NCBI GenBank assembly: GCA_023267275.1
Contig: JAHFNO010000009.1
Span: forward strand, 1-44,687
From: Candidatus Nomurabacteria bacterium
GTDB taxonomy: Bacteria; Patescibacteriota; Minisyncoccia; Phycocordibacterales; UBA9973
Reading direction: 5' to 3'
DNA: 44,687 bases
Part shown: in pieces, positions 2,493 to 24,296 of the stretch
Numbering within the stretch: position 1 is the stretch's first letter
Layout: each line of letters starts with the position of its first letter
Notes under the pieces: generated by a model
What the model was told of the DNA's origin: nothing
What the model saw: the letters and a program-made list of their open reading frames with translations, nothing else
Databases searched by the model: none
Made by a program: the position numbers and the translations under genes

Positions 2493-3806
2493 ATGGATAC
2501 CATCGAAAAACAATTTGAAAAATTCTACGAGAATATAAAGCTTACCCCAGCCCAAAAGGAAGACGCTAAGACGAAATACAACGGCGTCTGTTCGAAGTTG
2601 CATGATTATTACTATCCGAATACGACCTATTCCGGTAGTACAAAACTTCTGATCGGGTCGTACGGTAAGCACACATCGATTCGTCCTGCGCGTGACATTG
2701 ACGTTATTTTTATCATGCCGCCGGAAAAGTTCGCGCAATACGACGACAACACATCAAACAAGCAATCCCAACTTTTGCAGGACGTAAAGAGAATTTTGGA
2801 AGAAAAATATCCGAATACGCCGATCAGTGCGTTCGGGAAGATTGTGAAGCTTGAATTTGCCGATACTAAACACGACGTTGAGCTTGTACCGGGCTGGGAA
2901 AACGACGATGGTACTTTCACTATCCCTGACTCAGAGAATGGGGGAAGGTGGCACAGACAGGACTACCGAAAAGAAATATCTGAAATTGCTGAATCTGACG
3001 CAACGACTGGAAAAACAAAATTCCTTATCCGTTCAGTTAAGAAGTGGTCAGACAACTGTACTGCACGCACCCGAACATTCGAGATCGAGCGTGTAGCTCT
3101 TTCGTTCTTTGCGAGTGGAGGTAAGGGTACAAGCAGTGCACAGCTCTTTGTGAATTTCTTCCAATACTTCCTGAACAGTACAACGGATGAGAGTCTCAGA
3201 AGCCATCTGAATACTGCTCTTGGCCGCGCGCAAAAGGCTCGCGCATTTGAGACTAATAGCAAATTTGAAGAAGCTGCCGACGAATGGAAAAAGATATTCG
3301 GTGACGATTTTCCTAAGACGATTAAAATTGCAACTCAGGAAATACCAGTTAGTGAGGGTGAGTTCGACAAGCTCACTAAGTTGACGCGTGACTATCCTTC
3401 TCCTGACGAAGAGCATCTTACAGACAAGCACGGAATACCCTTTGAAATTGACCCTATGTATTCGGTGTCCCTTGATGCGGATGTTGAACAGGACGGATTT
3501 AGGAAAAGTACATTACTCTCGTTTATTCAAAGCAGATTCCCATTGCGTAAAAGCAAAAAGTTGCTTTTTAGGGTAACTCACAATGTTCAGGGTCCATATG
3601 AAATAAAATGGAAAGTTCGCAATTTCGGGGAGGAAGCAAAGAGGGCTAATGGTCTACGTGGTCAGATTCATGACGATATGGGATCAGAAACAAGAAACGA
3701 AAGCACGCTTTATCACGGTGAGCATTATGTCGAGTGCTACATCATTAAAAACAACAAGTGCGTTGCAATCGGCAGAATTCTCGTGCCGATCGGCAAGGAC
3801 TATTAA
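2493..3806 (+). CDS. CBASS CD-NTase (SMODS nucleotidyltransferase with AGS-C sensor domain)
   Basis: A 437-aa cGAS/DncV-like nucleotidyltransferase, predicted to make a cyclic oligonucleotide alarm signal after phage infection. The catalytic signature is GS at residues 55-56, followed by D68-I-D70 in the ARDIDVIFIMP stretch, with the third carboxylate D128 in KHDVELVP. The C-terminal ~100 residues match my recollection of the AGS-C domain (RGQI, then E-T-Y-HGEHYVECYI and a final basic strand), found in CD-NTase-type proteins. The next gene, six bases downstream, is a SLATT effector, as expected of an operon. The signal type cannot be read from sequence. Another nucleotidyltransferase role is possible but less likely in this context. 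Confidence 0.88.
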   Translation: MDTIEKQFEKFYENIKLTPAQKEDAKTKYNGVCSKLHDYYYPNTTYSGSTKLLIGSYGKHTSIRPARDIDVIFIMPPEKFAQYDDNTSNKQSQLLQDVKRILEEKYPNTPISAFGKIVKLEFADTKHDVELVPGWENDDGTFTIPDSENGGRWHRQDYRKEISEIAESDATTGKTKFLIRSVKKWSDNCTARTRTFEIERVALSFFASGGKGTSSAQLFVNFFQYFLNSTTDESLRSHLNTALGRAQKARAFETNSKFEEAADEWKKIFGDDFPKTIKIATQEIPVSEGEFDKLTKLTRDYPSPDEEHLTDKHGIPFEIDPMYSVSLDADVEQDGFRKSTLLSFIQSRFPLRKSKKLLFRVTHNVQGPYEIKWKVRNFGEEAKRANGLRGQIHDDMGSETRNESTLYHGEHYVECYIIKNNKCVAIGRILVPIGKDY

Positions 3807-3811
3807 ATACT

Positions 3812-4363
3812 ATGGATAAAATCAATTTACAGGTTATACGAGAATCATTCGGGCGAGTTGTTTATTCACACAAAACTCACGAGAAAGAAGCGGAGGTTCA
3901 GAGTAAGAACGCCCATTGCTTCAAATGGTTAAATTTGATTGTCCTGATTTTGGGTTCTGGTGGCCTCTTGAGCACGTTGATTACGGATCAGAAGTGCTTG
4001 CTTGTCATTGGTGCAATTCTTACATTTATCGGCCTGGGTCTTGCTGTTTTTCAGATGAGCTTTAATCCAGAAGAAAAAGCCTACAAACACAAACAGTCAG
4101 CCCATCAGCTCTGGCAGGTGAGGGAAAGGTATACATGCCTCATTGCTGATATTATGAATCAGAAAATCACTGAGGAGAAAATAACTGAAAAAAGAGACCA
4201 GTTGCTCTGTGATCTCGACCTTATATACAAGAATGCTTTACCGACAAGTAGCAAGGCCTACGGGATGGCATCGAAAGCCTTAAAAAAAGATGAAGAGTTC
4301 ACGTTCTCTGATGCCGAGATTAATAAATTTCTTCCGAAGGATCTCTGGCTCAATCATGAATAA
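3812..4363 (+). CDS. SLATT-domain two-helix membrane effector of CBASS
   Basis: A 183-aa protein with two adjacent transmembrane helices (about residues 38-57 and 61-81), preceded by a basic amphipathic helix and followed by a helical cytosolic region. This is the layout of SLATT (SMODS/SLOG-associating two-TM) proteins. Members are thought to be membrane-disrupting effectors switched on by the nucleotide made by the neighbouring CD-NTase. ATG 3812 is chosen because it follows the CD-NTase stop by five bases; an upstream in-frame start would overlap the CD-NTase. Together the two genes make a minimal CBASS with no visible Cap2/Cap3 ubiquitin-like genes. Confidence 0.82.
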   Translation: MDKINLQVIRESFGRVVYSHKTHEKEAEVQSKNAHCFKWLNLIVLILGSGGLLSTLITDQKCLLVIGAILTFIGLGLAVFQMSFNPEEKAYKHKQSAHQLWQVRERYTCLIADIMNQKITEEKITEKRDQLLCDLDLIYKNALPTSSKAYGMASKALKKDEEFTFSDAEINKFLPKDLWLNHE

Positions 4364-4932: not shown

Positions 4933-6258
4933 TTATTGCAGTGCTATTTTCTTTTCTTTCAAAATCAGTTTACTCCGCAGATGGCTCAGTAGCTCTCGTT
5001 TCTCCCATATGCTTCGCTCGCGCAGTATATACTTCGCGTAGTTGCGGATGTCTATCTCCGTTACTTTAATCTTTTCCTTTGCCTTCTTGCCGAGCACCGA
5101 CTCGTTGAACTTCTGGTGTTGCTCAAGCTCCGCCTTAATCTTGTCTTTCATGCCTATGTCGTCCAAGTCTACTGTGTCGAGTATTGCGGCCAGTTGCTCT
5201 ATAAGCTCCTCCTCCCGTACATATCCACACGGGCAGTTCTTGTCTTTGAACTTCGTGCATCCGTAATACACATGTCGGTGTGTAGTGCCATCTTTTTGCT
5301 GTTTGAATTTCTCGTCCGCGCAGATGCCCGAGCCGCAGAGGCCGCAGGTGAGCATGCGCGTGAAGGCGAACTCCTTCGGCGGCACTCGCACCTTGTTTTG
5401 GCTCGTCGTTTTTTCTTGAACTAGATCGTACAATTCCTTGGCGATGAGCGGCTCGTACTTTCCCTTGTACCAGTTTCCGCTTCCTTTCGGATACTCGAAG
5501 TCGCCGTAGTAGAAGGTATTTTTTAGAAGTAGATATATGTTACTCAAGGTCAGCGGTTTTCCGCTCTTTGCTCGGAATCGGATATCGTCTTTCATCCAGT
5601 AGAATATTTTTCGTCCTGACCATCCGTCGTAAGCGACCTTTTCAAACATTTGTTTGATGACCATGCCGCGCAGGGGATCTACTATGGTCTCGCACTTCTT
5701 GTTTCGATCCGGATTTGCGAGGTAGCCGGTAGGCGGTACTGTCGGCCACATGCCCATCTCGCACCGCGCTCGCAGTCCGCGCTTCACGTTGACCATCTTA
5801 TTGTCATTCTCTAATTTCGCTTGGCTCCCTAAAATCATGAGCAGGAATTTCTCATTCGGGTTGTTCCCGAATCTCTGACCGTACGTTCTGATCTCGATGA
5901 GCAGTCCTTGATCCATGAGATCGACGACCGAGCCAAGGTCGCCCGCGTTGCGGCTCAGTCGGTCTGGTGCCCAAGTCAGGATGCCGTTGAATTTTCCGGC
6001 TCGGATTTCCGCTAGAAGCTCGTTGTAGACCGGTCGCTGGCCGACCTCTTTCGACGAGTGCGATTCTCTCTTGATCTCGGCGATTTCAAGCCCCTCGCGC
6101 TCGGCAAGTGCCTTCATTTCGTTGACCTGCGATTCGATTGATAATGCTTGCTTGTCTTCCTGCTCCGTACTCTTTCGAGCGTACAGGCAATACTTCACCT
6201 TTAATGGGGTTGTGTCCTTTGTCGGAACCCCTTCCGATATTTGTGCTGTATTTGTCAT
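4933..6258 (-). CDS. Large serine recombinase
   Basis: A 441-aa serine site-specific recombinase (448 aa if ATG 6279 is used). The N-terminal resolvase domain shows the catalytic YARKS serine and the DRLSR motif. A Recombinase domain follows, then a zinc ribbon (CGLCGSG ... YGCTKF, CPCGYV) and a helical C-terminus, as in phage and ICE integrases. It is slightly short for a large serine integrase. It is the only integrase-type gene in the window, so it is the best candidate for moving part of the island. It lies 2.6 kb inside the left border, between defence genes. Start choice is uncertain; no clear ribosome binding site precedes either ATG. Confidence 0.88.
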   Translation of the reverse strand: MTNTAQISEGVPTKDTTPLKVKYCLYARKSTEQEDKQALSIESQVNEMKALAEREGLEIAEIKRESHSSKEVGQRPVYNELLAEIRAGKFNGILTWAPDRLSRNAGDLGSVVDLMDQGLLIEIRTYGQRFGNNPNEKFLLMILGSQAKLENDNKMVNVKRGLRARCEMGMWPTVPPTGYLANPDRNKKCETIVDPLRGMVIKQMFEKVAYDGWSGRKIFYWMKDDIRFRAKSGKPLTLSNIYLLLKNTFYYGDFEYPKGSGNWYKGKYEPLIAKELYDLVQEKTTSQNKVRVPPKEFAFTRMLTCGLCGSGICADEKFKQQKDGTTHRHVYYGCTKFKDKNCPCGYVREEELIEQLAAILDTVDLDDIGMKDKIKAELEQHQKFNESVLGKKAKEKIKVTEIDIRNYAKYILRERSIWEKRELLSHLRSKLILKEKKIALQ

Positions 6259-6279
6259 ACAACACAAGGAATGACGCAA

Positions 6280-6303
6280 CCCCTCTTGTGAGTCTAGGAG
6301 GGG
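6280..6303. promoter_or_regulatory. Inverted repeat between recombinase and nuclease genes
   Basis: CCCCTC (6280-6285) and GAGGGG (6298-6303) flank a 12-bp spacer in the short gap between divergent genes. It could be an operator, or part of the recombinase attachment site, since att sites often sit next to the integrase gene. Confidence 0.35.
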
Positions 6304-6339
6304 CTGTTGGTAACTTTATGCTAAAATAACCGTCCAAGT

Positions 6340-9553: not shown

Positions 9554-10288
9554 TTAAAACCAATTTTTTACTTCAAGGGCATTTCGAGCCGCTTGTTGCT
9601 CGGCCTCACTTTTTGATTTACCCGTACCTTTCGCTGGTTGAATGTCTCCAAAGTAGACTTCGACAATGAAAGTTTTGTCATGGTCTGAGCCAGTCTCACT
9701 AACTACATCGTACATTGGTGTAAATTTAAAGTGTTCCTGAGCTTTCTCTTGCAGGAATGACTTCGGATCACGCCAAAGTTTACATCTCACAATTTCATCT
9801 ATGCGAGGCAAAAGATTGCTTGCAATAAAGGCTTCAGCAACGCCATATCCCTGATCGAGATAAACGGCACCGACGAAAGCTTCAAAGGCATCAGCAAGAA
9901 TGCTTTGTAGAGATTTGTGGTTGTCCTTCTTTTGTCCCTCAGAAAGTAGTATGTAATTGTGCATACCGAGTTCCTGAGCGACCTCAGCAAACATCCTTGC
10001 GTTCACGAGGGCTGAGCGATAATTCGTCAGATCGCCTTCTGGGCAGTCAGGGTATTTCCTGTACAGGTAATTGGTGACGATCAGTTCGACAACCGCATCT
10101 CCAAGAAATTCCAGACGTTCGTTGCTTCCCGCGACCAATCCTCTGTTTTCGTTAAGGTATGATCTATGGGCGAAGGCTTGCTTCAGGATTCCTTTGTTTT
10201 GAAATACGATGTTTGTCTTTTGTTCGAATTTTCCGGGATCTTCCGCCGCTTTCTGGGGCAGAAAAATGATCTTGTTTGTTTGAGCCAT
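9554..10288 (-). CDS. rnc: Ribonuclease III
   Basis: A 244-aa double-stranded-RNA endonuclease. The catalytic domain has the signature NERLEFLGDAVVEL and the second acidic cluster DAFEAFVGAVYLDQG. A double-stranded-RNA-binding domain follows (about 165-240), ending in GKSKSEAEQQAARNAL. Length and residues are those of an active enzyme. It lies among island genes and shares their promoter type. It could be the organism's only rnc or an element-borne second copy; the window alone does not decide. The leader before its ATG (AATTCTTTAATATGG) nearly matches that of the HARE gene upstream. Confidence 0.95.
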   Translation of the reverse strand: MAQTNKIIFLPQKAAEDPGKFEQKTNIVFQNKGILKQAFAHRSYLNENRGLVAGSNERLEFLGDAVVELIVTNYLYRKYPDCPEGDLTNYRSALVNARMFAEVAQELGMHNYILLSEGQKKDNHKSLQSILADAFEAFVGAVYLDQGYGVAEAFIASNLLPRIDEIVRCKLWRDPKSFLQEKAQEHFKFTPMYDVVSETGSDHDKTFIVEVYFGDIQPAKGTGKSKSEAEQQAARNALEVKNWF

Positions 10289-10409: not shown

Positions 10410-11465
10410 CTAATTCACTTTTTCGATTGCGACAGGGGAATACTTTCCTTGTGTGTCTTTTTTAAAACACGCTGGATCTTGCAGGGCTGCAAGAATCGTA
10501 TTCTGCTGAAGCACTCGTTTCTCAAGAACTTTGGATATGATCTCATTCTTGCTAAGAGCACCTTCTTTTTTCAGGAGTTCTCTTATCACATCGCGAGCAA
10601 ATCCCGGTGTGTATCCATTTTCAGAGAGGGCGTACGTGCCGCGACCTACGAGGACGATACGATCGTCTTTGATAAGTTCGTTATGGCAGGTAGCTGTGTT
10701 GCAAGGAATGTTAAACGTTGCTTTTATAGCTTTAGCTATCTCACCAAAATGCATGGGAACAGCGTTTTTCTTTAAAACAAGGTAAGCGTAATCTTTAACA
10801 CCGCTTACTTTTGCTCCGTTTGTAATGTCTTTGCCCCATTCTCCGAGAGGGTTTTTTACGATGTTCTTTGAAAATCCTAACCACCTTAAGGTGGTTTCTT
10901 TTCGTTTAAAGGTTACGCCGGAGGTTTCTAATACCTTTAAAAACCGATAAATGATTTCACTTTCATCAATGAGCTTAGTATCGGAGAGTTCCGTGTATAG
11001 TTGCTCAATGGAAGAGTGAACTTTGCATGAAAGATCTCTATTGATACTCCAGTGAGCGAGACAAATATCATCATCCTTCCATTTAATGAAATCATCATCC
11101 AAAGTGATAAAAAAAAGAATTTTATTCTGTATTTTTTTATCCTCAGAAATCGATAGCAATAATTCATTTTCGAGCAGTAACTGATCTTTTTCTTCAAAAA
11201 TAGCCTTGAGCATTTTTCTAACGGTTTGGCCGCTTTTGTACTCATCGCTTTCTTTGATGATGCGTAGTGCGTCCTGCTCAATCTGGCGGACACGTTCACG
11301 TGTAATGCTGTATCCTTCACCGATTGATTCGAGGGTTTGCGGCTCGCTATTTGAGCCTATCCCGAAACGATTTTCGATAATAAGGCGAGAGCGGGGATTG
11401 AGGAGTCCAAGGAAGTTGTCCAAGGCCCACTCTAGTGCGAACTGTATTTTTCTCTGTGAATCCAT
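10410..11465 (-). CDS. Sigma-region-4-like / HARE-HTH DNA-binding protein
   Basis: A 351-aa protein. Residues ~18-75 resemble sigma factor region 4: LLNPRSRLIIENRFGI, then the helix-turn-helix end TRERVRQIEQDALRII. The middle is unassigned. Residues ~220-320 match the HARE-HTH winged helix (DYAYLVLKKNAVPMHFGEIAKAI), a domain also found in RNA polymerase delta subunits and some restriction systems. There is no region 2, so it cannot act as a complete sigma factor. It may modulate RNA polymerase or compete for region-4 contacts. It lies between RNase III and the sigma-DnaA fusion, each gene with its own promoter and terminator. Confidence 0.75.
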   Translation of the reverse strand: MDSQRKIQFALEWALDNFLGLLNPRSRLIIENRFGIGSNSEPQTLESIGEGYSITRERVRQIEQDALRIIKESDEYKSGQTVRKMLKAIFEEKDQLLLENELLLSISEDKKIQNKILFFITLDDDFIKWKDDDICLAHWSINRDLSCKVHSSIEQLYTELSDTKLIDESEIIYRFLKVLETSGVTFKRKETTLRWLGFSKNIVKNPLGEWGKDITNGAKVSGVKDYAYLVLKKNAVPMHFGEIAKAIKATFNIPCNTATCHNELIKDDRIVLVGRGTYALSENGYTPGFARDVIRELLKKEGALSKNEIISKVLEKRVLQQNTILAALQDPACFKKDTQGKYSPVAIEKVN

Positions 11466-11524: not shown

Positions 11525-11535
11525 TGACAAAAAAA

Positions 11536-11562
11536 TAGAGGGTTGCTAATAGCAACCCTCTA
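11536..11562 (-). terminator. Terminator of the sigma-DnaA fusion gene
   Basis: Perfect 13-bp hairpin (11536-11548 with 11550-11562), followed on the minus strand by a run of eight T. Confidence 0.9.
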
Positions 11563-11584
11563 TAAATTAATTAAATCAAAAGTC

Positions 11585-13279
11585 CTATGAAGCGATTTCA
11601 GAGTAAGAATTTAATAATTCTATAAGAAACTGAATGTCGCCTGAAAGCCCTTTGGTTTCGCGTGCGTCCTTCTCTATTTTAAAGTACGCGTGTCTAACTG
11701 TGGTGTGGTCTCTTTCGTTAAACTTACGAGCGATTTCGCTGAGAGAAAGTTTAAAGTGACCTCTGAGAATGTACATTGCGACATGTCGAGCAAGAACTAC
11801 ATCTTCTTTTCGGTTATCGCTACAGATGCTTTCTTCGGATATGCCGTAAAATTTACCGACAACTCCGATTGTGCGGGGGATTAATGATTGGTTAGTCGCT
11901 GCTTTAATTACTTGATCACTTCCAGCGAGCTGGGTTTTTTCTGTGACCTCTGTTTCAGCAAACTGCCTTTCCAAATATTCCTCTGCAAACTTTCGTAGTG
12001 CCGCATCATTTTTTACCTTTGCCAGTGCGATGGCTTCGATTTGTCGTATCCTTTCTCTGGTTACTCCAAACTCGTCACCGATCTCATTAAGTGTCATGTA
12101 CCGATTGTTGCTCAGTCCATAACGCTTATCAATAATTTGGTATTCTTTGATGCTTAAGTTTATCTTCATGCATCTGCGGATCTTTTCCTTAAGGATTTTG
12201 CGATCCACCATTTGTGTTGGTGTAATGTCGCGAGTATCGCCTAAGAAATCACCGATACCAGATCCTTCGCCGTCGTCATCGTCCTTGCCAGGTTCATCCA
12301 GGGAAATACCATTCTTAAAATGTTCAAGTTGTTCAAGGTCGAATACCTCATGCGTTTTAATTTCCATTCGTGCAGCGATTTCCGCAAAATTGGGTTTTTC
12401 TGCACCTCTGGCTTCCATTAAAGCAAACAACTTTCTGAATTTTGATAGCTTTTCATGAACATGGACAGGGAATCTCACTGTGTGCCCAAAATCTGCCATC
12501 GCCCTACCCATAGATTGCTCTATCCACCTATATGCATAAGTGCTAAAGCTAAAGCCAAGAGAGGGGTCAAACAACTCGATAGCCCGTTTGATTCCGAAGT
12601 TTCCTTCTTGAAGAATATCTTCAAGTTCAATTCCATGAGGCTTAAATCCCAACCTACTTTTGTACTTTCCACCTAGCTGGAGAAGCAGTTTTTGATTGTG
12701 CATGATGATCATATTTTGTGAATGAACATTACCCTGTTGGGCTTCTTCAATCAGCTTATATATGACATCTTTTGCAAGGATCTTGTGGTGCTTAACCGTT
12801 TCGGCGTACCAGTCGATTTCAGGGAATAAGAAATCAGAATTTTCTTTCGGGCTTCTTTCAATTTCGATCCGGACATACTTCTCGAGTTCGTTGAAATCAA
12901 CGGACTCGTTGGCTTTTGGTATTTGCCTGTGTTTAACCTGAGTCTTTGTGCGCGCGATTATCGTTTTAGACGCAATGGACTCAAGTGGCACAGCATTTGC
13001 ATTACCAATTTTTACGTCAAGTTCCTTGAACGAAACTTTTCTCTGAGTGACATACGTTACTGCAACTCCGTACTGGCCGAATATTTTGGTCAGGGAAGAA
13101 AGGGTGGTCGTAAAACGAAGCCCACCTTTCTTGTCGCGGGGAAGCAGGCGGATGATCTCAATCGTAGATATCTGTTTTTGGGCAAATATCCCTTCGAGCA
13201 TGGCGTGAGCGTTAGACGTCAGCCTGCCCGTAACTTGTTCTAAGGAGGGCAGAGCCTCCAAATAAGTGCTGTTTTCCAT
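11585..13279 (-). CDS. Sigma-70 family factor fused to DnaA domain IV
   Basis: A 564-aa protein. Residues ~188-262 are sigma region 2 (LEDILQEGNFGIKRAIELFDPSLGFSFSTYAYRW in outline, with the -10-melting aromatics). Residues ~295-325 are region 3. Residues ~365-425 are region 4, ending TRERIRQIEAIAL. After a ~40-residue linker, residues ~468-555 match DnaA domain IV, the DnaA-box-binding HTH: R490, the ARHVAMYI segment, SLSEIARKF and the signature RDHTTV at 523-528. The first ~85 residues resemble a winged helix. There is no AAA+ domain. I know of no sigma factor with this C-terminus. Inference: it may direct polymerase to promoters near DnaA-box-like sites, or couple transcription to replication of the element. 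Confidence 0.88.
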   Translation of the reverse strand: MENSTYLEALPSLEQVTGRLTSNAHAMLEGIFAQKQISTIEIIRLLPRDKKGGLRFTTTLSSLTKIFGQYGVAVTYVTQRKVSFKELDVKIGNANAVPLESIASKTIIARTKTQVKHRQIPKANESVDFNELEKYVRIEIERSPKENSDFLFPEIDWYAETVKHHKILAKDVIYKLIEEAQQGNVHSQNMIIMHNQKLLLQLGGKYKSRLGFKPHGIELEDILQEGNFGIKRAIELFDPSLGFSFSTYAYRWIEQSMGRAMADFGHTVRFPVHVHEKLSKFRKLFALMEARGAEKPNFAEIAARMEIKTHEVFDLEQLEHFKNGISLDEPGKDDDDGEGSGIGDFLGDTRDITPTQMVDRKILKEKIRRCMKINLSIKEYQIIDKRYGLSNNRYMTLNEIGDEFGVTRERIRQIEAIALAKVKNDAALRKFAEEYLERQFAETEVTEKTQLAGSDQVIKAATNQSLIPRTIGVVGKFYGISEESICSDNRKEDVVLARHVAMYILRGHFKLSLSEIARKFNERDHTTVRHAYFKIEKDARETKGLSGDIQFLIELLNSYSEIAS

Positions 13280-13297
13280 TGTTAACGATTTTCTTGA

Positions 13298-13361
13298 ATT
13301 TTACACTAAAAGCCAATAAAGTCAATAGATACATTGACTTTATTAACAACTATGCTAAAAT
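13298..13361. promoter_or_regulatory. Symmetric divergent promoters on a 12-bp perfect palindrome
   Basis: AATAAAGTCAAT (13315-13326) and ATTGACTTTATT (13333-13344) form a perfect inverted repeat with a 6-bp spacer. Each arm contains a TTGACT -35 box pointing outward. Plus strand: 13334-13339, 16-bp spacer, TAAAAT 13356-13361, for the helicase. Minus strand: 13320-13325, 16-bp spacer, TAAAAT read from 13298-13303, for the sigma-DnaA gene. A dimeric regulator bound here would block both. Confidence 0.75.
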
Positions 13362-13398
13362 ACAAAAAACTCAACTTAACAACTAAAAAATAGAAAAT

Positions 13399-15813
13399 AT
13401 GATAGAAACAGACTTCCAAACGGACATCAAACCCTACCTGTATCAGGAGGAAGCCCTTGAATGCATTGATAATGCAGAAAACCAAGGGAAAAAGCACGCG
13501 CTCATCATAATGGCGAGCGGTCTAGGTAAAACAATCGTAGCGGCATTGCACACAAAGCGGCGGCTCGATCGTAACCCAAAAACCCGTGTATTATTCTTCT
13601 GCCATCAAAATAACGTCTTGGAACAGGCACAAACCCGTTTCGAGTCGGTACTAGGTAGCGAAATAGCGTACGGATTTTTCCATGGGTATGAAAAAACACT
13701 CGATGCACAAATATTATTTGCATCATTTCAGACCATGAGAGACAACGTTGATAAGTTTGATCCGGAGGAGTTTGATCTTATCATTGTTGACGAAACCCAC
13801 CATGTGATGGCGGAGACCTATTTGCCCGCGTATCAGTACTTTAATCCGGAGTTTACTCTTGCGATTACCGCTACGCCGAAACGCAGTGACGACCAGGATA
13901 TCTCTGAAATCTATGGTGAACCCGCGTATGAGCTTCTATTGCCAGACGCGCTTGCTCGCGGCCTTCTATGTCCTATCGAGTATAAACTTATGACCGATGA
14001 AATATCGTCATTAAAGGTACTTGAGACGGAACACGGGAAAATGAGTGTTGGCAGATTGAATCGCCTAATATTCATGCCAAAGAGAGACGAGGAAATTGTG
14101 AGGCTTATCTTAGCCGAAATGGCTTTGATTGAAAATCCTCGCGTGATGATTTTCTGTTCCTCAATCGAGCACAGCGAACGTATGGCAGAATTCATCGAGG
14201 GCGCAGTTCCTATCCATTCTAAGGTGAGCCCGTCCGAGAAACGTGTAAGGGTTGAATTCTTCCGTCAGGGAGTTTTCCCAACAGGCGTTACTGTGGACAT
14301 GTTCAACGAGGCTTTGGATGTTGCTGAGATCAACCTTGTTGTATTCTTGCGAACTACAAACGAAGAAAGGATATTTCACCAACAGCTTGGAAGGGGATTG
14401 CGTCCTCATGAAAGCAAGACAAAGGTGGTTATTCTGGATTTTGTTGGAAATTGCGAGCGTGTCAGAACTATCGTCACCCTGTATAAAGAGGTTGAAGAAA
14501 GAAGACGCGATTACGAGAAAAAACAGACAGGAGATCGTACTAAAGTACCTCCATTTTTTCTCAATGTTGATTCGGAGGGCTTTAAGGAAAAAGTCATTCC
14601 GCTTATTGACTTGATTGGGCGCTTTGCGGCTTCGTTCTATCCAACTTGGAAAGAGGCTTCTGAGGCGGCTGCAAAATTGGGACTTAAAAATCCGACAGAT
14701 TACGAGTTCGGTTATAAAAAAGATGCACGTTTGCATTCAAGCCCAGTTTTGTATTATGACGATTATCCTGGGAAGCATGTCTTCTTTGGGAATGTCGTAA
14801 TTGAGGAAAACCAAACAAGTATCATTTGCGCTACGTGGAAGGAGGCTAGCGAACTTACAGCAAATTTGGATGTTGAGGATAGGGAAGAGTATCAGAAAAG
14901 GTATTTAAACTACAGTAGTTTGCCTGCTGATCCTTGGACTTATTACGCTGATTATCCAGGAGATGATGTATTTTTCAGAAAGCCCTACTCTACTTGGCAG
15001 GAAGCTTCGAAGGCCGCAATTGCCGTTGGTCTTACCGATGGCAGTAAATACCGTAAAGATTACAGAAAAGACCCTCGTCTTCCTCCTAAGCCCTATAAGT
15101 TTTACTCGGATTATCCTGGTTCAAAAAGTTTTTTCCCTACGTTTTATGTAACTTGGGCAGAGGCTTGCGAGGCAATTAAAAAATTGGACGTTGCTAATAG
15201 AACTGAATTTAGAGAAAAGCGCGAGCTTGACCCTAAACTTCCTTCAGATCCAGGTATCTATTATTCTGATTTCACTGGGTATCCATTTACAAAAAGGAAG
15301 ACTAGCCAAACAAAGTTCTATACCAATTGGAAAAGAGCCTCAGTTGCGGCCAGAAGATTGGGTATTACGAATAGCGGTGAGTATAAGCAATTAAGAAGTA
15401 AGGATCCTCTCTTGCCTTCTAATCCTTCTGAGTATTATCCTGATTATCCGGGACTTCCAGTCTTCTTAGATATGTACTACCGGACTTGGCAGAAAGCGGC
15501 ACTTGCGGCAAAAAAATTGGGGCTTACAACGAAGAGCGAATACTTCAAACGTTACAAAGAAGACAGCAAACTGGTTTCTTACGGTAATCTTCGACTACAG
15601 TATAAAGATTTCCCAGGATGCCGAATATTTTTTGGAGGGAAAAAGATGTATGAAACCCTCGAAGAAGTAATGGAGGTTGTTCACAAGTTAAAGTTGAATA
15701 CGAAGGATGAATATCAGCTTGCTCAAAAGCAAGATTCTGCATTGCCTAGTAATCCAGCAATAACTTATAAAACACAGTTTCCGGGCTGGCCGAAGTTTCT
15801 TGGCAAAAGCTAA
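13399..15813 (+). CDS. SF2 DEAD/DEAH-type helicase with seven INT_rpt-like C-terminal repeats
   Basis: An 804-aa protein. The N-terminal SF2 core has Walker A MASGLGKT (~residues 38-45), DETH (Walker B), the ATATP motif III and motif VI QQLGRGLRPHE (~330-340), as in type I restriction HsdR-like and XPB-like helicases. Residues ~414-802 are seven tandem ~55-aa repeats: a W/T-W-x-EA helix, then KLGL, Y, Dp-LPs-P, YYxDYPG and FFG. They resemble the phage-integrase repeat unit (INT_rpt) family as I remember it. No nuclease domain is visible. The gene is divergent from the sigma-DnaA gene. Likely a DNA translocase of an element or defence system; the repeats may bind DNA. Confidence 0.85.
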   Translation: MIETDFQTDIKPYLYQEEALECIDNAENQGKKHALIIMASGLGKTIVAALHTKRRLDRNPKTRVLFFCHQNNVLEQAQTRFESVLGSEIAYGFFHGYEKTLDAQILFASFQTMRDNVDKFDPEEFDLIIVDETHHVMAETYLPAYQYFNPEFTLAITATPKRSDDQDISEIYGEPAYELLLPDALARGLLCPIEYKLMTDEISSLKVLETEHGKMSVGRLNRLIFMPKRDEEIVRLILAEMALIENPRVMIFCSSIEHSERMAEFIEGAVPIHSKVSPSEKRVRVEFFRQGVFPTGVTVDMFNEALDVAEINLVVFLRTTNEERIFHQQLGRGLRPHESKTKVVILDFVGNCERVRTIVTLYKEVEERRRDYEKKQTGDRTKVPPFFLNVDSEGFKEKVIPLIDLIGRFAASFYPTWKEASEAAAKLGLKNPTDYEFGYKKDARLHSSPVLYYDDYPGKHVFFGNVVIEENQTSIICATWKEASELTANLDVEDREEYQKRYLNYSSLPADPWTYYADYPGDDVFFRKPYSTWQEASKAAIAVGLTDGSKYRKDYRKDPRLPPKPYKFYSDYPGSKSFFPTFYVTWAEACEAIKKLDVANRTEFREKRELDPKLPSDPGIYYSDFTGYPFTKRKTSQTKFYTNWKRASVAARRLGITNSGEYKQLRSKDPLLPSNPSEYYPDYPGLPVFLDMYYRTWQKAALAAKKLGLTTKSEYFKRYKEDSKLVSYGNLRLQYKDFPGCRIFFGGKKMYETLEEVMEVVHKLKLNTKDEYQLAQKQDSALPSNPAITYKTQFPGWPKFLGKS
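14638..15804 (+). repeat. Seven tandem protein repeats (INT_rpt-like) in the helicase gene
   Basis: The units start at the TWKEA/TWQEA/TWAEA-type helices and end at the YPG..FF motif. At protein level they are clearly related but diverged (unit 4 has lost the FFG end and unit 6 has a VSYGN insertion). The DNA is not tandemly identical, so the array is old. Confidence 0.8.
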
Positions 15814-15820
15814 AAATCAG

Positions 15821-15876
15821 CTTTTGTAATATTACAAAAGGCATTAATCACAGAGTGATTAATGCCTTTTCTTTTT
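15821..15876 (+). terminator. Palindrome overlapping a 16-bp hairpin terminator
   Basis: A perfect 20-bp palindrome (15821-15840) is followed by, and shares AAAAG with, a perfect 16-bp stem (15836-15851 with 15855-15870, loop AGA) and a T run. The two hairpins cannot form fully at the same time. It terminates the helicase gene. Confidence 0.85.
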
Positions 15877-17331: not shown

Positions 17332-17628
17332 ATGTGGATTCTGCTTATCATCATTCTGTATTTCCTTCCGACATTCAACGCGTACTCAAACAAGAAGCGG
17401 AACGCTGGGTCAGTTTTCATTATTAACTTCTTCCTCGGGTGGTCAATCATCGGCTGGATCGTCGCGCTCTCCATGTCGGCGGGTAAAGACGCGAAGCCGA
17501 CCGTGGTTGTCAAAGAGGTGGAAAAGAAAAGCTCGGCTTCCGATCTTATAGAACTCCATACACTCAAAGAGAAGGGTGCTATCACCCAAGAAGAATTTGA
17601 TGCCCACAAAAAGAAGATCCTAGGCTAA
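17332..17628 (+). CDS. Superinfection-immunity-like membrane protein with SHOCT domain
   Basis: A 98-aa protein. The N-terminal half has two hydrophobic helices with the pattern YFLPTFNAY ... NFFLGWSIIGWIVALS, as in the phage superinfection immunity (Imm-type) family that blocks DNA entry of related phages. The C-terminal ~30 residues are a SHOCT helix pair (LIELHTLKEKGAITQEEFDAHKKKIL in outline). It is three bases downstream of the membrane-anchored protein gene and overlaps the convergent TerL-like gene by four bases. The family is common in bacteria and is not proof of a phage function. Confidence 0.75.
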   Translation: MWILLIIILYFLPTFNAYSNKKRNAGSVFIINFFLGWSIIGWIVALSMSAGKDAKPTVVVKEVEKKSSASDLIELHTLKEKGAITQEEFDAHKKKILG

Positions 17629-22280: not shown

Positions 22281-24296
22281 ATGAAAGATATTTCCAAGGT
22301 CGTAACTGAAGATTTGTTTATTAGTTCATATCAGATTTTGAATGATTTTGTAATTGAAAAAGCTGACAGTTTGCAGGATATTAATTTGATATTGATCTCA
22401 GATTATCTTACGGGACTAACTGTTCACCAGGTTAAAAAATTTTATAATAAATATATTAGTAATGGGTTGGTATATTCATTACCAGAATTTTTTGCGAGCG
22501 ATCTCGTAACAATACCTAAAGGTGTTTCAGATGTTCGAGAGTACAGATTTTTTTCTGCGTTTGGGATGATTTTATATAATGCGCTCGGCATTTTTTTTGC
22601 TGAGATGTGTGCTGAGATGGTAACAAATTTAAACCTTCAGGATCGAGGTATATATAGCTATGCTCCAACAAAATATACAAATCAAAATGCAAAGTGGAGA
22701 ATAAATAATAAATGGCAGCAAGAGTATGATAAATACAAAAACAAATTAAAAGAAACTGCCGAACAATCTGATCTTGTGCTTAGTATTGATATTTCAAATT
22801 TTTTTAAATCAATTAAGCATAAAAAATTAACAGAAACTATTAATGATTTTACTAGTGCTCAGAACCGAGAAAAGTATTCTTTCGATGGAAATTCAGAGGA
22901 TATTTTAAATCATTATTTTCTTTCAATGATGGGAGAGAACAAAGGTTTACCTCAAGGTAAAAAGAATTTTGCTTCTGATTATCTAGCATATCTTTATTTG
23001 GTGAATTTCGATATGGAGCTGGAGTCTCTAGTAGGTTCTGATTTATTTGAATTTGTTGCATCGGTTAGATACGTCGATGATGTTCACATTTTCTTTAAGA
23101 AGAAAAAAGAGTTATCGAACTCGAGTACATATAAAGAATTAAGTAAAATCGAGCATGGAATTAGTAAGTGGCTGTATAAAAAATTAGGACTTTATCTTAA
23201 TGATAAAAAAACATCCCGAAAAATTATTATAGAAAAAACCCAGAAGGATGAATTTATTAATAGCGCTAAAAAGAAAACCTCCGGTTCCGCACCATCTCCA
23301 ATAGTAAAAGAGGATCTTGATGAGAAAATTAAACTTTTCGCTGATGCCGTTGCTGGATTTGCCTACCCTAACACTCTAGATTTTACAGATGGCTTGATTG
23401 GAGGCAAAGATAGGGAAAATTTGAAATATATTTTTGATCTGTCTGTAAAGAACAAACTCGCTCAAAAATCGGAAGTAAAAAAAATGACTAAAGTTTTAAG
23501 TTTAGTTGATTTAGAGCTTTCGGCTACACAATTCAATATTTTTGGAGCGTTATTTGAAATTGGTAGTCAGGGTAAAAAACCTTATCGTTCAGTTTTGATT
23601 TCCTATTTTAAAAAGAATTTTGATCCTAGAGATAAACGTCACATACATATTATGTTAATTGCCAGTGCTGTTATGCTTAATCCTAATTTGTTCAGGAGCA
23701 TTGTGGATGAATATAAAAAAGAATTAATAAAAGATGATTATGGAAAATACTTGGTAGCGTATTATTTTCCAAAAAGCAAAAAGCAATTAGCCTCAGATAA
23801 TTACTGGACAATTAGCAACCGTGTGTACGAAAGAATTTGCGCAGAGAGGGATAATAAATTTAAAAATTTTCCTTTCCTTGGTGTAGGATGTTCCCATCCT
23901 TTCAAGTCAATTATTTTTCTAGATAAAACTCGTAATCTTGATTCTACCTATACGGCACTTTGTGGGTATGTGCATGAGTTTAGGTTTAGAAGATGGAGCG
24001 TGGCATTTAATAAATTACAAATGATTACCCATGAGAGTATTAAGTATTCTTTTAGGGAGGTTAAGGATACAGATAGCGGAAAAGAAATTATTAAAAAACT
24101 AATTAAGAACGGATTAATAATATCTACTTACGAGGAACGCGATTTTTTAAATTTTTGGGAAAGAAGAAATTTTAACCCGATATCTCATGGTAGTAAGAAT
24201 GGTTTGACTTCTCCTGAAGTTACATATAAGGAATTAACTGAGTGGGAGAGAAAGGTTTCTGTTTTGGTTGACAAAATATACCTCTTAAAAAACTAG
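22281..24296 (+). CDS. AbiA-like reverse transcriptase with C-terminal HEPN motif (anti-phage candidate)
   Basis: A 671-aa protein. The RT palm is shown by LSIDISNFF (D170), GLPQG (~225) and RYVDD with Y264-V-D-D267, followed by the LYLNDKKT thumb-side motif. The C-terminal ~300 residues are helical and end in a HEPN-like RX6H motif, R629-NFNPIS-H636, preceded by WER. RT plus C-terminal HEPN is the layout of abortive-infection AbiA-type enzymes, which are non-mobile and defensive. There is no intron, maturase or retron msr/msd signature that I can see. The gene is AT-rich by eye, unlike its GC-rich left neighbours, and is bracketed by 17-bp direct repeats, suggesting separate acquisition. Confidence 0.82.
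   Translation: MKDISKVVTEDLFISSYQILNDFVIEKADSLQDINLILISDYLTGLTVHQVKKFYNKYISNGLVYSLPEFFASDLVTIPKGVSDVREYRFFSAFGMILYNALGIFFAEMCAEMVTNLNLQDRGIYSYAPTKYTNQNAKWRINNKWQQEYDKYKNKLKETAEQSDLVLSIDISNFFKSIKHKKLTETINDFTSAQNREKYSFDGNSEDILNHYFLSMMGENKGLPQGKKNFASDYLAYLYLVNFDMELESLVGSDLFEFVASVRYVDDVHIFFKKKKELSNSSTYKELSKIEHGISKWLYKKLGLYLNDKKTSRKIIIEKTQKDEFINSAKKKTSGSAPSPIVKEDLDEKIKLFADAVAGFAYPNTLDFTDGLIGGKDRENLKYIFDLSVKNKLAQKSEVKKMTKVLSLVDLELSATQFNIFGALFEIGSQGKKPYRSVLISYFKKNFDPRDKRHIHIMLIASAVMLNPNLFRSIVDEYKKELIKDDYGKYLVAYYFPKSKKQLASDNYWTISNRVYERICAERDNKFKNFPFLGVGCSHPFKSIIFLDKTRNLDSTYTALCGYVHEFRFRRWSVAFNKLQMITHESIKYSFREVKDTDSGKEIIKKLIKNGLIISTYEERDFLNFWERRNFNPISHGSKNGLTSPEVTYKELTEWERKVSVLVDKIYLLKN

Follow-up and report, generated by a model that had tools for sequence, protein, structure and literature searches.

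In this work we have analysed a window, by which we mean the whole stretch of 44,687 nucleotides of contig JAHFNO010000009.1 from a Candidatus Nomurabacteria bacterium, a small-genome member of the Patescibacteria, with particular attention to a gene at positions 11585-13279 of the minus strand. Its open reading frame starts with ATG, has no internal stops and encodes a protein of 564 aa, which we describe here as an accessory sigma-70 factor carrying a DnaA domain IV at its C-terminus. Its divergent partner, on the plus strand at 13399-15813, encodes an SF2 helicase of the ResIII type (804 aa) with C-terminal INT_rpt repeats, as judged by Pfam. Between the two genes lie putative back-to-back divergent promoters (13298-13361), with a -35 element TTGACT, a gap of 16 nt and a -10 element TAAAAT on each strand, and both -35 elements sit within the inverted repeat AATAAAGTCAAT-agatac-ATTGACTTTATT, the spacer of which is 6 nt long. 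Beyond this -35 repeat, no upstream element shared by the cassette promoters was found. Terminator-like hairpins of the intrinsic kind bound the pair at either end, one right after the sigma gene (11535-11563, minus strand) and one past the helicase gene (15836-15870, plus strand). The first of these stands between the sigma gene and a gene for a protein that joins sigma region 4 to a HARE-HTH domain (sigma4-HARE), and since this hairpin is strong, an operon of the sigma gene with the sigma4-HARE and RNase III genes is unlikely.

The pair is part of an island that lies between a tRNA-Gln(CTG) gene (2220-2291) and core genes that begin at about 24.7 kb. The island also encodes a CBASS nucleotidyltransferase with a SLATT effector, a large serine recombinase, an Mrr-type endonuclease, a RecD/PIF1-like helicase, two N6/N4 methyltransferases, a reverse transcriptase and several proteins of unknown function. 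The RNase III (9554-10288) and sigma4-HARE (10410-11465) genes, both on the minus strand, are second, divergent copies and belong to the context, outside the cassette; the native sigma4-HARE gene is on contig C14 and the other RNase III gene on contig C21, and nearly all relatives checked have a single copy of each. The CBASS-like pair (2493-4363) lies beside the tRNA-Gln gene and consists of a SMODS nucleotidyltransferase with an AGS_C sensor, followed by a SLATT_4 effector with two transmembrane segments. A small membrane protein (17332-17628) matches the phage superinfection-immunity family phrog_1039 in its N-terminal part, and its last part matches two other PHROGs at their C-termini. The reverse transcriptase (22281-24296, 671 aa, RVT_1) is found at the right end of the island, in DNA with a GC content of about 0.35, and is possibly of the defence type.

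The contig belongs to its genus and its middle is an island, since on either side the genes run in the order of a genus mate and the part between differs. In the left flank, the CTP synthase and LOG protein genes are 76-90% identical to those of the genus mate G005 and 63-83% to those of the genus mate G004, with the same tRNA-Gln beside them in both genomes. For most of the right flank, from 26 to 34 kb, the identity to the same G004 contig (C7) is 59-74%, with the gene order broadly kept; across both flanks the identities to G004 are 82-83% for CTP synthase, 73% for VIT1 and 59-74% for the other genes. At the same tRNA-Gln, G004 has a different island (L366 13468-15161 and 1288-1378), whose serine recombinase is 40% identical to that of the window (4936-6315) and whose far side repeats the 3' end of the tRNA together with the downstream flank. 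The tRNA-Gln locus is a hypervariable integration site. The second RNase III and sigma4-HARE copies had raised the suspicion of a mis-binned contig in this MAG, the contamination figure of which is 4.09%, and we rejected this possibility on the basis of the CTP synthase, which is 89% identical to that of a genus mate, and of the colinearity of the flanks with contig C7 of G004.

The domain structure of the 564-aa protein agrees with the preliminary description, which had reported complete sigma regions 2 to 4, a linker and then the DnaA-box-binding domain, without an AAA+ ATPase. Pfam places Sigma70_r2 at residues 192-259 (E 1.6e-11, 44.2 bits against a cut-off of 24), Sigma70_r3 at 279-357 (19.7 bits, below the cut-off of 25.3), Sigma70_r4 at 375-423 (E 2.3e-14, 53.1 bits) and Bac_DnaA_C at 471-535 (E 3.4e-22, 78.7 bits against a cut-off of 31.5), so that the assignment of the tail stands. 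Region 3, weak as it is in Pfam, is probably present, because the NCBIfam profile TIGR02393 (RpoD_Cterm) spans residues 189-431 unbroken (E 1.5e-54); the NCBIfam DnaA profile TIGR00362 matches residues 449-554. Neither the DnaA AAA+ domain (Bac_DnaA) nor a Y1/HuH nuclease domain was matched by Pfam in this protein, and the motif RDHTTV is indeed found at residues 523-528. Along the minus strand we distinguish an N-terminal domain (residues about 1-110, 12950-13279), sigma regions 1.2 to 4 (about 150-427, 12000-12830, from the NCBIfam profile and residue comparison), a linker (about 428-454, 11918-11997, from the AlphaFold2 model) and DnaA domain IV (455-564, 11588-11917, with the Pfam core at 11675-11869). 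In the full-length AlphaFold2 model, built from an alignment of 16 rows, the sigma domains are well formed, the linker is helical and domain IV is modelled with confidence (pLDDT 93-98 for residues 465-560), whereas residues 1-153 are modelled poorly. The model predicts that the linker is a long helix (426-449) followed by a flexible break (450-454). By sequence comparison, the last 110 residues find solved DnaA chains, with 1j1v (E. coli domain IV) among them. The comparison of a predicted structure with DnaA domain IV, which the preliminary description had proposed, gave the same answer: residues 445-564 modelled alone align with 3pvp and 1j1v, the M. tuberculosis and E. coli DnaA domains IV bound to DNA, with an rmsd of 1.2-1.5 A and a TM score, normalised by target length, of 0.91-0.92. 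The presence of a sigma-70 core and of DnaA domain IV in one protein is confirmed and is far beyond chance.

The protein is an extra sigma factor, since the genome encodes its own RpoD (contig C21), DnaA (contig C23) and a short sigma as separate genes elsewhere. Its halves are also not copies of the host genes. The identity to the host RpoD is 37% and that to the host DnaA 32%, and a tree built from 92 domain IV sequences puts the domain of the window outside the DnaA clade of the order, which has a support of 100/98 and includes the genome's own DnaA; a chimera of the host rpoD and dnaA was rejected on these grounds. Among the residues that would contact DNA, the -35 reader of region 4, TRERIRQIEA, is as in all RpoDs compared, with TRERIRQI identical. 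Region 2.3 is different (STYAYRWIEQSMGR in the window sigma and STYATWWIRQSITR in RpoD): it contains STYAYRWIEQ where every RpoD compared has STYATWWIRQ, and the wedge tryptophan, W433 in E. coli numbering, is replaced by Arg, unlike in each RpoD compared. Promoter melting by the window sigma may therefore be impaired or altered. In domain IV, a gap-free alignment with 1j1v shows R399, L422, D433, H434, T435 and T436 to be identical, with K415 changed to R and P423 to S; these eight, in E. coli numbering, are DNA-contact residues of DnaA. Both DNA readers look functional in view of the retained -35 helix and contact residues, and a DnaA-box specificity of domain IV would be possible. The sequence holds the parts that would bind core RNA polymerase and read -10 and -35 elements, together with a second, putatively sequence-specific reader, domain IV, on a short tether.

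A related cassette occurs in G035, a genome of the same family from another genus, where the same divergent sigma-helicase pair is found. The helicase at 13399-15813 is 46% identical to the one divergent from the G035 sigma gene, and the intergenic arrangement of the TTGACT inverted-repeat core with its 6-nt spacer is identical. The N-terminal domains of the two sigma factors are homologous, with 27% identity over 99 aa (BLAST E 4e-9) and an alignment score of 97 against a maximum of 58 in 2000 shuffles; no similarity of this domain to region 1.1 of the genome's own RpoD was detectable. The G035 sigma (L076 1959-3524) has no DnaA tail, and instead has two repeats of the homing-endonuclease-associated HNH_repeat type between its N-terminal domain and region 2. 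In the sigma tree, the branches are too long to place the sigma domains of the window and G035 as nearest relatives or otherwise. Judging from these two members, the sigma-helicase cassette is probably an older unit onto which extra DNA-binding domains have been swapped.

How rare is the combination of a complete sigma factor with this tail? We found one instance. No second complete sigma with a DnaA tail was present in about 1,100 different sampled genomes, or in the viral contigs, phages and plasmids searched; the genome samples overlap and comprise 60 relatives, 397 genomes of the order, 384 of the class (among the matches listed) and 380 of the phylum, and the search of the 397 used a strict threshold that is able to hide divergent fusions. 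No relative was obtained from scans of genome and viral contigs with the whole protein, of 197 genomes of the order with the N-terminal domain, or of viral contigs with the helicase. An alignment search with the sigma pair yielded one viral sigma, which matched in region 4 and nowhere beyond, and the viral proteins with Bac_DnaA_C are small and lack sigma region 4. The full architecture is likely absent elsewhere.

The last part of it, however, recurs on other backbones. Sigma region 4 followed directly by DnaA domain IV forms the C-terminus of five patescibacterial GHKL-ATPase proteins, encoded in G745 and on JACQRW010000021.1, JAIETW010000001.1, JAQULQ010000005.1 and JAHJQT010000032.1 (GHKL/MORC-like fusions at L160 1735-4536, L161 2996-5896, L223 5983-8817, L224 5502-8318 and L071 2612-4807). 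The G745 protein is MORC-like and has 731 aa; the other four, from Sungbacteria, Colwellbacteria and two further patescibacterial MAGs, have about 930-970 aa and share a conserved upstream gene (218-242 aa, 34-54% identity) that had no Pfam match in the two cases scanned. One of the five adjoins a DUF4268 gene and an apparent serine recombinase, the latter judged from its sequence only. None of the other members of this GHKL family that we identified in other phyla and in two other patescibacterial groups carries this tail. The occurrence in five GHKL proteins makes the pairing of sigma region 4 with DnaA domain IV a recurring module and not an artefact; of the fusion sought in related genomes, the region 4-DnaA_C part was found, on other backbones, and the complete sigma with its tail was not seen in those sampled. 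All five lack sigma region 2 and therefore cannot be sigma factors, and it may be that the tandem serves general DNA targeting rather than promoter choice. Separately, we noted a 247-aa protein in the relative G011 (L073 2276-3019) in which Bac_DnaA_C, situated in the C-terminal half, is the sole domain, another use of domain IV outside DnaA.

What could a sigma factor do with domain IV? The reading that we prefer, to which we would give about an even chance, is that the protein is an island-encoded accessory sigma-70 whose domain IV holds the holoenzyme to the DNA upstream of the -35 element, so that promoters are chosen by a composite site. It would be an accessory, non-housekeeping sigma of a mobile defence island, working from a compact divergent cassette with its SF2 helicase. 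In the holoenzyme, the sigma domains would recognise the -10 and -35 elements, and a further site upstream of -35 would be read by domain IV, which would act as a built-in activator and narrow the choice to a few island promoters; the divergent promoter pair of the cassette itself would be the first and obvious candidate for a target. With less assurance, we suggest that the site of domain IV may be a DnaA-box-like or an evolved sequence and not necessarily a replication origin, and that the cassette may take part in the defence or mobility functions of the island. More tentatively, at a low level of confidence, sigma region 4 with DnaA domain IV might be a recurring patescibacterial composite head that reads a joint site made of a promoter and a DnaA-box-type sequence, for example at replication-linked promoters, arming a sigma holoenzyme here and GHKL ATPases elsewhere. 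If this were true, it would mean that islands carry a new class of systems able to sense, or to make use of, the replication-transcription state of DNA.

Could domain IV simply still read DnaA boxes, with the sigma sending RNA polymerase to the promoters beside them, such as those at oriC and dnaA, and thus linking transcription to the replication state? Most of the DNA-contact residues are kept, boxes are present at dnaA-dnaN, and a scan by pattern search and inspection of short stretches gave about 48 sites of TTATNCACA in the genome, compared with 34 when the pattern was reversed as a control. However, the region 13280-13398, the sole promoter region attributable to the cassette, has no consensus box and contains only the one-mismatch near-matches TTTTACACT and TTATTAACA, of which 0.36 would be expected by chance, and the single TTATNCACA of the whole window lies within the SLATT gene. 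Outside long open reading frames we found 26 of the 47 boxes checked, few of which had even a weak promoter-like match nearby, and none stood out or was convincing. In addition, the Bac_DnaA_C domains of Y1 transposases go with target repeats that are unlike DnaA boxes (PMC6006769). We therefore regard this explanation as unlikely. The preliminary description had suggested a tie between promoter choice and DnaA boxes, for which the scan of the genome that it proposed, for boxes beside promoters, gave no support. Its wider alternative, a tie to the replication state or to a mobile element, holds in the second part, with a variable tRNA-Gln island, a serine recombinase and defence genes; a link to replication is possible but unsupported.

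It is similarly improbable, in our estimate, that the tandem is the composite DNA-sensing head of anti-phage or anti-plasmid proteins, which would recognise incoming DNA by one of its replication or promoter sites and trigger defence genes here or aim the ATPase in the GHKL proteins. This would suit the company of CBASS, Mrr, two methyltransferases and a reverse transcriptase, the DUF4268 and apparent serine recombinase genes beside one GHKL fusion and the conserved upstream gene of four. It would also suit the matches to the MZA system, MzaA being the best NCBIfam and PADLOC match of the sigma part and MzaB being matched by the MORC-like fusion of G745. Both matches are nevertheless far under their cut-offs, and a neighbourhood on an island is weak evidence of function. 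Perhaps the protein serves the island itself: domain IV would bind the origin of the island or the sites at which it recombines, and the sigma would transcribe genes for excision or replication. The different island at the tRNA-Gln of G004, with its related serine recombinase and tRNA-end repeat, and the INT_rpt (integrase repeat) units of the partner helicase would fit, but no replication initiator or origin repeat was identified in the island and no copy of the cassette promoter motif was found at the serine recombinase, so we consider this very unlikely. A dead gene, or an artefact of assembly or binning, might be suspected from the contamination figure, the extra gene copies and the fact that the full architecture was found once, but can be practically dismissed, given the intact reading frame, the flanks that follow a genus mate's contig in order, the distance of both halves from the host genes and the tandem in five other assemblies.

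The preferred reading, a sigma factor with an additional anchor, can be set against several known systems. The protein resembles RpoD and the group 2 sigma-70 factors in having regions 1.2 to 4 in order, with region 3 probably included, and a canonical -35 helix, and differs from them in its DnaA domain IV, its N-terminal domain and the change of W433 to Arg; it also scores far below the RpoD equivalog cut-off (185 against 354 bits). From ECF sigma factors, which have only regions 2 and 4, it is set apart by the RpoD_Cterm match that runs through region 3. With DnaA it shares the fold of domain IV and most DNA-contact residues, but without the AAA+ domain III and DnaA_N it cannot be a DnaA-type initiator. 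In MZA there are likewise a sigma-70 protein (MzaA) and an ATPase (MzaB), so that sigma-like and GHKL proteins stand on both sides of the comparison; the match to MzaA (NF041931) reaches 195.4 bits against a cut-off of 800 and is confined to the conserved sigma core, and no MzaB-E genes were found among the eight window neighbours scanned with PADLOC. The five GHKL proteins have the same C-terminus on a GHKL body that lacks region 2. The Y1 transposases of TnpA-REP subclass 2.1.2 also reuse DnaA domain IV as a C-terminal tail, on a HuH nuclease instead of a sigma factor (PMC6006769). Sigma factors with an added C-terminal regulatory domain are already known (PMC8999054); those extensions bind ligands or proteins, whereas the tail in the window has the fold of a sequence-specific DNA-binding domain, and its sigma probably has region 3. 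Reuse of domain IV on other proteins is not new, and a sigma factor with such a DNA-binding tail seems undescribed: in agreement with the preliminary description, we found none in the literature searched, which takes in few of the subscription journals. The tail would provide the sigma with another DNA address, covalently attached, as if nature had fused an activator to RNA polymerase, and the pairing of sigma region 4 with DnaA domain IV in unrelated ATPases points to an unnoticed DNA-reading module in a very large and poorly understood phylum.
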